Shown here one piece after another: positions 24,586 to 27,229 of a DNA stretch of 64,000 nucleotides. Below the pieces are notes generated by a model, which was given only the letters and a program-made list of their open reading frames with translations, ran no database searches and was not told where the DNA came from. The translations under genes and the position numbers were made by a program. The stretch lies in contig NZ_JAPPVQ010000013.1 in NCBI RefSeq assembly GCF_026768455.1, positions 1 to 64,000 of the forward strand. The letters are read 5' to 3'. Within the stretch, counting starts at the first letter, position 1. Every line of letters starts with the position of its first letter. Origin of the DNA: Candidatus Nitrosotenuis cloacae (GTDB lineage: Archaea; Thermoproteota; Nitrososphaeria; Nitrososphaerales; Nitrosopumilaceae).

Positions 24586-25926
24586 ATGCCTGAGCAGTTT
24601 TTTCATCTTGTGGAAGACACCGTTCTGAACATAGGCTTTGACGACACCGACTCCCCAAAGGGCATGTGCACCACGTACCTTGCATACAAGATAGTGGACT
24701 CGCTAAAAAAGGAAAAAGTGGAGTTTATCGACTATCCAAAACTGATCAGGTTCAACCCGAATATACCGTGGAAGACGCGCGGAAACGGCGCAGTCTCGCT
24801 GAAAATTCGAACCAGTTCCCCTGAAAAAATAAAAAAGAAGGTAATCCGATTCGTGACAAAGTTTTCGGATCTCAAAAACGGGGCAAATCCTGGCGTGGTA
24901 TTCTTTGAAAGCAAGGCGGTGCCTGATCAGTTTACCAAATTCAGCAGGGATGCGCTCTGGCAGTTGGTGAGCAGAAGCAGGGCAAAAAAATTCCTCGCAG
25001 AAAACAATGTCGACTCGTTTCACATCGGCAACGGACAGGGACTGATAGGGGCAATCGGGGCTATAGGGTACAAGTTTGATGATCACACGTACGAGCTATT
25101 AAGCTACAGGAAAAGATCAAAGTTTGGCACAAAAAGAAACATAGTGGCATCCAGCGTCAAGCAGATGCAGGAAAGCCTCCCAAAAACATTCAACAGTTAT
25201 GACACAAAAAAACAAAAAGTGCTGCTGGCACCGCGCGGACCGGATCCAGTATTCTTTGGAGTCCGGGGCGAGAACGTTGACTCTGTATTGAGTGCGTCAA
25301 AGATGATCAAATCCGATGAAAAACCAGTAGGTCATATGGTATTCAAGTCAAACCAGGGTACAGGAGACCACCTCCTAAACCAGCTTGACGTGCTGTCGCT
25401 CAAGCCGTATTCTTCTGGAGTAATTACTGGAACGGTTCTAGACGAGCCGGAAATGAAACTAGGAGGATATGTGATGTTTTCCATACTAAAGCAAGGAGTC
25501 AAGGTAAACTGTGCAGTCTACAAGCCGACCGGAATCACACAGAATGCGTTGAACCTAATCAAAGGCGATGTGATACGCGTGGGGGGAGGACTCAGAAAGG
25601 CGTCAAAGAACCACACGCGTACTTTGAATGTGGAGTTTTTCCAAGTTCTAAAACTCCAAGAAAGAAAGGTTCCAGCAAACCCGCTGTGCACAAGGTGCAA
25701 CAAGAGGATGAAGTCAAAAGGGAGGTCTCAGGGCTTTGAGTGCGTCAAATGCGGAAGGAAAAAAACAAAAAAAGTAACCATGACCATTCCAAGAAACCTG
25801 CAAAAACGGCTTTACATTCCCCAGTCATCGGCACACCGGCACCTCACAAGGCCACAACAGAGAATAGGTATAACAAACAAGGAATCAAAATTCGACAAAA
25901 AGATTCCATGGTTTAGTGTTTATTGA
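24586..25926 (+). CDS. tiaS: tRNA(Ile2) 2-agmatinylcytidine synthetase
   Basis: Modifies C34 of tRNA-Ile2 (CAU) to agmatidine so that it reads AUA. The 446 residues have the N-terminal catalytic block GFDDTDSPKGMCTTYLAY, the FNPNIPWKTRGNGAVSL segment and IGAIGAIGY. An OB-fold (SGVITGTVLDEPE) and a C-terminal zinc ribbon (CTRCNKRM with CVKCGRKK) follow. Domain order and length are standard for TiaS. It sits 8 bp before the 3' end of the antisense initiator tRNA gene. Confidence 0.95.
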   Translation: MPEQFFHLVEDTVLNIGFDDTDSPKGMCTTYLAYKIVDSLKKEKVEFIDYPKLIRFNPNIPWKTRGNGAVSLKIRTSSPEKIKKKVIRFVTKFSDLKNGANPGVVFFESKAVPDQFTKFSRDALWQLVSRSRAKKFLAENNVDSFHIGNGQGLIGAIGAIGYKFDDHTYELLSYRKRSKFGTKRNIVASSVKQMQESLPKTFNSYDTKKQKVLLAPRGPDPVFFGVRGENVDSVLSASKMIKSDEKPVGHMVFKSNQGTGDHLLNQLDVLSLKPYSSGVITGTVLDEPEMKLGGYVMFSILKQGVKVNCAVYKPTGITQNALNLIKGDVIRVGGGLRKASKNHTRTLNVEFFQVLKLQERKVPANPLCTRCNKRMKSKGRSQGFECVKCGRKKTKKVTMTIPRNLQKRLYIPQSSAHRHLTRPQQRIGITNKESKFDKKIPWFSVY

Positions 25927-25934
25927 AAATCAAG

Positions 25935-26061
25935 TAGCGGGGGGTGGACTTTCAGGAGTTTTATCTCCATTTGAACCACTGATCTGCGGGTTTCTCATCA
26001 TGATGATTATGAGCCCGCCGGGATGACTTAGCCCTGTGAAGACTGACTTCCCCACCCCGCT
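25935..26061 (-). tRNA. Initiator tRNA-Met (CAU) with three introns
   Basis: Read on the minus strand from 26061. The acceptor arm is AGCGGGG with CCCCGCT and discriminator A at 25935; CCA is not encoded. The anticodon stem GCGGG/CCCGC with three G-C pairs and an A1-U72 pair marks an initiator. The anticodon is at 26011-26009. Three insertions must be removed. Intron 1 (26042-26028, 15 nt) splits the D-loop so that G18 and G19 come together. Intron 2 (26007-25992, 16 nt) is at 37/38. Intron 3 (25969-25949, 21 nt) is in the T-loop at 59/60. Each has a 4-bp central helix of a bulge-helix-bulge: AGTC/GGCT (one wobble), CTCA/TGAG and TTCA/TGAA. The spliced tRNA would be 75 nt with an A49-C65 mismatch. 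Confidence 0.88.
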
Positions 26062-26080: not shown

Positions 26081-26090
26081 GGGTATATAG
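26081..26090 (-). promoter_or_regulatory. TATA box of the tRNA-Met gene
   Basis: CTATATACCC on the minus strand, 20-29 bp upstream of the tRNA 5' end at 26061, the usual archaeal spacing. Confidence 0.5.
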
Positions 26091-26140: not shown

Positions 26141-27229
26141 ATGAACAAAAAGTTCAGAATCGCCGGAATCATAGGCGCACTAATTGTATCTGCAATAATT
26201 CTCACGTCCCCCTCAGAGTCTCCTCCGTTGCCGCTGCCCACTACGGAACAGAAAAACGAGTCAGTCAAAATCATTGCAACCGGATTTCAAAGGCCGTGGG
26301 CAATTGCCTTTGCGGAAGACAAAATCCTTGTAACGGAAAAATCAGGGGACATAAGGATAATCGAATCCGACGTTTTACTGGACGAGCCGCTTGCCACATT
26401 TAGGGTGGCAAAGGTGTTTGGCGGCGGACTGCTTGGGATAACAGCACATCCGAATTTTGAGCAAAACCGCCACTTGTACGTCTATTACACATACTCTGAG
26501 AACGACTCGTTGTGGAACAAGGTAATACGAATTACCGAGTCTGACAACAAGGTATCTGATGTTATTACAATACTTGACAAAATCCCGGCATCCCAGTTCT
26601 ATAACGGCGGTGTGGTAAAGTTTGGTCCAGACGGCAAGCTGTATGTGGCAACGGGACTGTCAACAGAGTTCTCACACGAATCCCAGGATCTCCAGTCGCT
26701 TGGAGGCAAGATCCTACGACTAAATGACGACGGCACCATCCCGGCAGACAACCCATTTGCGGGATCACCCATATTCTCGCTTGGACACAGGGATGTACAG
26801 GGGATGGCCTGGGATGCAAACGGGGCTCTGTACGTAACGGAATTGGGCCCGACAAAAAATGACGAAATCAACATTGTACAAGCAGGACAGAACTACGGCT
26901 GGCCCGAACAGGAATGTGGCGGAAATGAAAAGTTTGTGGACTCGATAACGTGCTATGATCCGAGTATAGAGCCTGGGGGAATTGTGTTTTATAGTGGGGA
27001 CAAGCTAGAATACAAGGACAGCTTGATTATGGCAACTTTGCGCGGATCAAACCTATTCAAAGTTAACCTAAATGATGACACAACACAAAAAAGCATATTG
27101 AGTGGAACCGGGCGCATCAGGGATGTGAGTCAGGGCCCTGACGGATATCTTTACATTATCACATCAAACACCGATGGAAAGGGTTTTCCAGACAAGACCG
27201 ATGACAAGCTTATCAGAATTCTGAAGTGA
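26141..27229 (+). CDS. PQQ-dependent sugar dehydrogenase-like protein (GSDH/Yli family), exported
   Basis: The 362-residue protein starts with a signal or membrane anchor (FRIAGIIGALIVSAIIL), then a six-bladed propeller of the glucose/sorbosone dehydrogenase family. Seen: GFQRPWAIAF, GGGLLGITAHPNFEQNRHLY, GGVVKFGPDGKLYVATG, LGHRDVQGMAWD, TELGPTKNDEINIV and NYGWPEQECGG. Typical enzymes oxidise aldoses using PQQ outside the cell. Whether this organism makes PQQ cannot be seen here, so the substrate and cofactor are inferred. The hmgA start lies one base after its stop. Confidence 0.85.
   Translation: MNKKFRIAGIIGALIVSAIILTSPSESPPLPLPTTEQKNESVKIIATGFQRPWAIAFAEDKILVTEKSGDIRIIESDVLLDEPLATFRVAKVFGGGLLGITAHPNFEQNRHLYVYYTYSENDSLWNKVIRITESDNKVSDVITILDKIPASQFYNGGVVKFGPDGKLYVATGLSTEFSHESQDLQSLGGKILRLNDDGTIPADNPFAGSPIFSLGHRDVQGMAWDANGALYVTELGPTKNDEINIVQAGQNYGWPEQECGGNEKFVDSITCYDPSIEPGGIVFYSGDKLEYKDSLIMATLRGSNLFKVNLNDDTTQKSILSGTGRIRDVSQGPDGYLYIITSNTDGKGFPDKTDDKLIRILK

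Follow-up and report, generated by a model that had tools for sequence, protein, structure and literature searches.

A single-copy initiator tRNA-Met gene with three introns in a Nitrosotenuis-like archaeon and a possible link between its T-loop intron and a LAGLIDADG endonuclease

Archaeal tRNAs with three introns are known from Pyrobaculum, examples being P. calidifontis tRNA-Glu and P. islandicum tRNA-Pro (PMC4390854), and thaumarchaeal tRNAs with multiple introns, some of them with three, have also been published (PMC8450103). Disrupted initiators are on record as well. The tRNA-iMet of Thermofilum pendens is permuted, with a junction at 59/60 plus an intron at 37/38, and a split tRNA-iMet broken at 37/38 has been described (PMC3218864). 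In tRNA-Ile(UAU) of Cyanidioschyzon merolae, introns are found in the D-, anticodon and T-arms (PMC9602550).

We analysed a 64,000-nucleotide stretch of DNA, hereafter the window, from a Nitrosotenuis-like ammonia-oxidising archaeon (thaumarchaeon). Read directly from the sequence, positions 26061..25935 of its minus strand hold a single-copy archaeal initiator tRNA-Met gene with three introns. Like the multi-intron tRNAs of Pyrobaculum and thaumarchaea, it combines short bulge–helix–bulge (BHB) introns, up to three per gene, with an alpha2beta2-type EndA. Unlike them, it is the single-copy initiator of a Nitrosotenuis-like thaumarchaeon, and all three introns can be followed as a presence/absence series among relatives. 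The gene is broken at 59/60 and 37/38 as in the disrupted initiators above, but its introns are in cis, the third lies in the D-loop and there is no permutation or trans-splicing. It shares with the C. merolae tRNA one intron per arm in three arms and BHB motifs; the latter, however, is eukaryotic, is interrupted at 12/13, 37/38 and 53/54 and is not an initiator. A search made largely without the subscription literature found no paper on a three-intron initiator.

The initiator tRNA gene and its copy number

The minus strand from 25935 to 26061 reads AGCGGGG...CCCCGCTA, which gives a precursor of 127 nt between the mature ends and a product of 75 nt once 15, 16 and 21 nt are removed. ARAGORN called the 75-nt spliced form as tRNA-Met(CAU). 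It made no call for the unspliced form, for any single removal or for the double removal of the D-loop and anticodon introns; the form keeping only the 37/38 intron was still called, and the form keeping only the D-loop intron was reported as a tRNA of undetermined type. In the raw window, both ARAGORN and Rfam missed the gene. The product has the A1–U72 acceptor end, the GGG/CCC anticodon stem and the CAU anticodon of an initiator, and together with the ARAGORN call these bear out the identity, anticodon and 75-nt product proposed in the initial annotation.

On the minus strand, exon 1 (26043..26061) runs from the acceptor 5' strand to G18, exon 2 (26008..26027) from G19 to A37 with the anticodon, exon 3 (25970..25991) from position 38 to A59 and exon 4 (25935..25948) from U60 to A73. 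These assignments rest on the sequence, supported by the ARAGORN splice forms for exons 1 to 3 and by orthologues for exons 1 and 4. Exon 4 forms the A49–C65 mismatch with exon 3. This mismatch, pointed out earlier as an oddity, is real and recurs in two relatives (G010 and G093). Because the anticodon-arm sequence is found in 210 of the 250 family genomes, the gene is not a chance match.

The initiator is distinct from the other two CAU tRNAs of the genome, an elongator Met tRNA and an Ile2-like tRNA. The adjoining gene encodes TiaS, the tRNA-Ile2 agmatinylcytidine synthetase, and we therefore considered an Ile2 or elongator identity; this was ruled out since both of those tRNAs are present elsewhere in the genome. 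TiaS (24586..25926, plus strand) is convergent with the tRNA gene and ends 8 nt from it. It modifies the other CAU tRNA, Ile2, and the gene order of TiaS and the initiator is conserved through much of the family, as well as in some further families of the order. The Ile2-like tRNA of this genome (L083, G000:C4:7439-7542) has a 29-nt intron, apparently before the anticodon. On the other side, the divergent neighbour is a glucose/sorbosone dehydrogenase-like gene (26141..27229, plus strand). One database entry titled Woeseiaceae bacterium (L118) holds a thaumarchaeal TiaS–initiator tRNA contig, which is probably a binning error.

Neither BLAST with the mature sequence nor a covariance model built from intron-less orthologues found a second initiator in the host genome, which is 99.27% complete in 18 contigs; both matched only this locus. 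One initiator per genome is the rule in these genomes. The initial annotation had treated three introns in the sole initiator as exceptional. The introns and the single copy stand, and the uniqueness was overstated, because single-copy initiators are usual, three-intron archaeal tRNAs are published and three-intron initiators recur across the order. For these reasons the window gene alone is not a new kind, and by itself it is a further case of an established type.

Junctions, intron structure and splicing

The D-loop intron (26028..26042, 15 nt, UCUUCACAGGGCUAA) lies at position 18/19, the anticodon-loop intron (25992..26007, 16 nt, AUCAUCAUGAUGAGAA) at the canonical 37/38 and the T-loop intron (25949..25969, 21 nt, UGGAGAUAAAACUCCUGAAAG) at 59/60, all on the minus strand and each with a covarying hairpin. 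Orthologues that naturally have one, two or all three introns missing agree at the predicted junctions. The D-loop intron is absent in L036, L038, L047 and L112, the anticodon-loop intron in L028 and L030, and the T-loop intron in the close relative G009 (locus L009) and most other orthologues; several Nitrosopumilus and Nitrosopelagicus have none of the three. The predicted mature tRNA and the intron-less L112 sequence agree at all but 4 of 75 positions. These orthologues thus fix the junctions without any structural assumption, within the usual border-repeat ambiguity, and they agree with the number, lengths and positions of the introns as initially annotated.

We gathered 89 distinct initiator gene sequences across the family and the order. 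Pairing in the inner stems exceeded that in shuffles, in tests that take no account of relatedness among the sequences: 85 of 88 cells were paired for the T-loop intron (shuffles, mean 61, maximum 72), 164 of 204 for the D-loop intron (mean 145, maximum 157) and 122 of 153 for the anticodon intron (mean 103, maximum 113). The introns share a common plan of 1 nt, a hairpin, 4 nt pairing with the four exon bases before the 5' bulge, and 2 nt. We scored a BHB as a helix of 4 bp flanked by two 3-nt bulges, each of them cut after its second nucleotide, with the presumed cut positions taken from the intron-less orthologues. A 4-bp BHB had been proposed at every junction. At 37/38 and 59/60 it is regular; at the D-loop it is weak, with a U.G pair in the 4-bp helix, an intron hairpin of 2–3 bp and no clean outer helix, and this motif is best called a relaxed BHB.

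The gene is preceded by a TATATA promoter element (26084..26089, minus strand), about 22 nt upstream of the tRNA and kept in the Nitrosotenuis relatives and most others compared, and it is probably transcribed as a precursor. Exon bases 14–17, 32–35 and 54–57, in the D-loop, anticodon loop and T-loop, are held in the intron helices, so the precursor would have no elbow and no usable anticodon before splicing. The genome encodes two EndA-family proteins. The 177-aa protein retains Tyr, His and Lys at the active site, and its closest matches are catalytic chains from crenarchaea (3p1z_B/3ajv_B/2cv8_A); the one of 191 aa lacks the aligned His. By gene content, catalytic and structural subunits (alpha and beta) are thus both encoded, and there are two copies of RtcB. 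According to reviews, Thaumarchaeota have alpha2beta2 splicing enzymes (PMC4090602), and this type removes relaxed motifs (PMC6379350). With these genes present, an alpha2beta2-type EndA would cut all six sites and RtcB would join the exons.

The mismatch, the failure of ARAGORN and Rfam to recognise the gene and the incomplete, 18-contig assembly would suit a decayed or silent pseudogene with a complete initiator gene elsewhere. We regard this as extremely improbable given the searches for a second copy, the conserved TATA box, the conserved exons and the covarying intron stems. From the sequence comparisons, the introns are almost certainly real and spliced, and the gene is very probably a functional, spliced, single-copy initiator tRNA-Met with three introns.

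Intron distribution among relatives

The combination of D-loop, 37/38 and T-loop introns occurs in the window, in G003, G005, G006, G007 and G010, in Ca. Nitrosotenuis chungbukensis MY2 (G011, L103), in CSP1-1 (G028) and in L127 and L150. Outside the family it was found in L020, L027 and L033, and L046, L048 and L053 have other sets of three that include variable-region or T-stem introns. Variable-region or T-stem introns are present in the initiators of other families at L041, L046, L048, L051 and L053.

The D-loop and 37/38 introns are widespread in the family. The T-loop intron varies between close relatives, and this is the unexpected part of the gene. On the TiaS tree, the fewest changes were at least 8 for the T-loop intron, 7 for the D-loop intron and 5 for the 37/38 intron. 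The T-loop intron of G222 is identical at 19 of 20 positions to that of N. chungbukensis, and the examined members of G222's own clade are without it. The upstream sequences of G009 and G011 match at 94.7% identity as far as the T-loop intron. From there G011 carries the intron, the end of the tRNA and some 750 additional bases, after which homology with G009 resumes. The two differ by a single block, from the T-loop intron through an endonuclease gene. We propose that the T-loop intron is the recently moving part of the gene. Spread to other tRNAs was also considered and rejected: seven further matches to the intron pattern in the family all lie outside tRNA genes, and that pattern thus gave no sign of intron transposition.

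The T-loop intron and the neighbouring endonuclease gene

The extra bases (about 750 in G011, about 1 kb in G007) hold an ORF of 204–213 aa in the same orientation as the tRNA and beginning about 34 nt past it. Homologues were found in seven of the 250 family genomes, in three genera, all immediately 3' of the initiator tRNA; no more were found among 400 genomes of the class, and none in viral contigs or phage records. The window has no such gene, with only 8 nt between its tRNA and TiaS, and no homologue was found in the rest of its genome. The gene is intact in G007, G011, G093, G177 and G194 and broken in G169 and G027. The intact copies are those at L008 853-1467, L006 826-1467, L253 1495-2121, L254 582-1205 and L255 290-898, and the broken ones those at L256 and L257-L258. 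Homing genes are expected to decay after fixation, in line with the broken copies. A tRNA 5'-half-like stretch lies opposite the endonuclease strand in G011 and G007 (L008 ~738-860, L006 ~497-850), and the copy in G011 includes TGTCTAGTGGTTAGGAT, which matches 17 nt of the tRNA-Val(CAC) in the window's genome exactly.

The product has a LAGLIDADG_3 domain (PF14528, E 8e-8), and Foldseek gave I-DmoI as the top matches (probability 0.97–1.00) for a predicted model of low confidence (mean pLDDT 52.9). By domain and predicted fold, the gene encodes an I-DmoI-like LAGLIDADG homing endonuclease. It resembles the I-DmoI-type endonucleases of archaeal rRNA introns in this structural match and in its PF14528 domain, and no relation to I-DmoI was detected at the sequence level. 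Unlike them, it is free-standing beside a tRNA gene and not intron-encoded. Site-specific cleavage and homing are putative, on the grounds of the fixed position, the horizontal-looking divergence and the linked changes in the T-arm.

Of the 250 genomes, 180 (of about 212 that bear an initiator) have an uninterrupted canonical T-arm (AGTAGTTCAAATCTACTCCCCGCT), and none of the seven endonuclease carriers does. In G007, G011 and G093 the arm is interrupted by the T-loop intron; in the other carriers the T-stem is recoded to AGCAG/CTGTT, AACAG/CTGTT or AATAG/CTATT. The carriers represent about four to six independent lineages, and the chance of finding no canonical arm is about 1e-6 by genome and 4e-4 if there are only four lineages, with an approximate denominator, an estimated number of lineages and a hypothesis formed on the same data. 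In the loci compared, the nearest upstream matches of G177, G027, G169, G093 and G011 are endonuclease-free with a canonical arm; the relatives of G194 are mixed, with L118 canonical and L162 recoded. G093, from a different genus, has retained a 5' part and a D-loop intron of its own. Its 3' part has a window-like AGTGG/CCACC arm with the A49–C65 mismatch, the T-loop intron and then the endonuclease gene. At fourfold sites, the endonuclease genes of Nitrosotenuis and G093 are 55–59% identical and both flanking genes 34–38%, which points to horizontal transfer.

These patterns also have to be weighed against ordinary turnover of BHB introns, in which all three introns would be either ancient or subject to random gain and loss, and the endonuclease that adjoins the tRNA in some relatives would be coincidental to the T-loop intron. 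Beyond this family, T-loop introns with similar hairpins are present in the same order at L020, L027, L029 and L046, so the intron may be an old one that was lost many times. Several genomes of the family have the T-loop intron and no homologue that we found (the window, G003, G005, G006, G010, G028 and G222), and G142, G178 and G180 have recoded T-arms without the endonuclease. Coincidence fits poorly, however, with every homologue sitting at one tRNA, with the lack of a canonical arm in any carrier and with the foreign-looking 3' part of G093, intron plus endonuclease. We give ordinary turnover substantial weight, somewhat below an even chance.

Another conceivable source of the T-loop intron is an integrase-type element whose attachment site is the 3' end of the tRNA. 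In the published model for Caldiarchaeum tRNA-Thr, the intron derives from an integrating element and protection of the site is suggested (PMC3293823), and here too the change affects the 3' part of the tRNA plus the adjoining flank. This seems unlikely, since no more than about 1 kb of extra sequence lies between tRNA and TiaS and, in the inserts of two genomes (G006/G007/G011-type loci), no ORF other than the LAGLIDADG gene reaches 100 aa, with no integrase seen.

As a comparison, free-standing endonucleases of T-even phages spread by cutting neighbouring sequence in relatives, their own alleles being poorly cut, and T4 SegB, one of these enzymes, acts in the phage tRNA region with the cleavage motif RAWTSGAAC (PMC2988022, PMC13096335). 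The relatives' endonuclease is likewise free-standing beside a tRNA gene, and by our own comparison the reverse complement of the SegB motif, GTTCSAWTY, resembles the T-loop. SegB differs in being a phage enzyme of the GIY-YIG family whose cleavage has been shown, that of the archaeal endonuclease being putative. By this analogy, the endonuclease would cut the canonical T-arm of the initiator tRNA gene, and repair would carry over the endonuclease gene along with the resistant 3' end, whether intron-bearing or recoded in the stem. The T-loop intron would then be part of a tRNA 3'-end haplotype that resists the free-standing LAGLIDADG endonuclease and spread with it, and the window would represent a lineage that keeps the resistant arm, its endonuclease gene lost or never present. 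The distribution in genomes makes it nearly an even question whether the T-loop intron is linked to the endonuclease element. A little more tentatively, thaumarchaeal initiator tRNA genes may be the target of this endonuclease in a form of intronless homing, with the T-loop intron as its resistance mark or companion.

How archaeal tRNAs gain introns is an open question, and at this locus close relatives can be compared with and without a single tRNA intron. That the third intron is the variable one, and that it appears linked to an endonuclease gene in relatives, was beyond the reach of the initial annotation. The locus also supplies a candidate agent that could be expressed, with a defined 24-bp sequence, the canonical T-arm AGTAGTTCAAATCTACTCCCCGCTA. 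If the proposed link is true, it would show one way for an archaeal tRNA to acquire an intron at 59/60, and an essential single-copy gene would be the homing site of a selfish endonuclease, with the intron as immunity.
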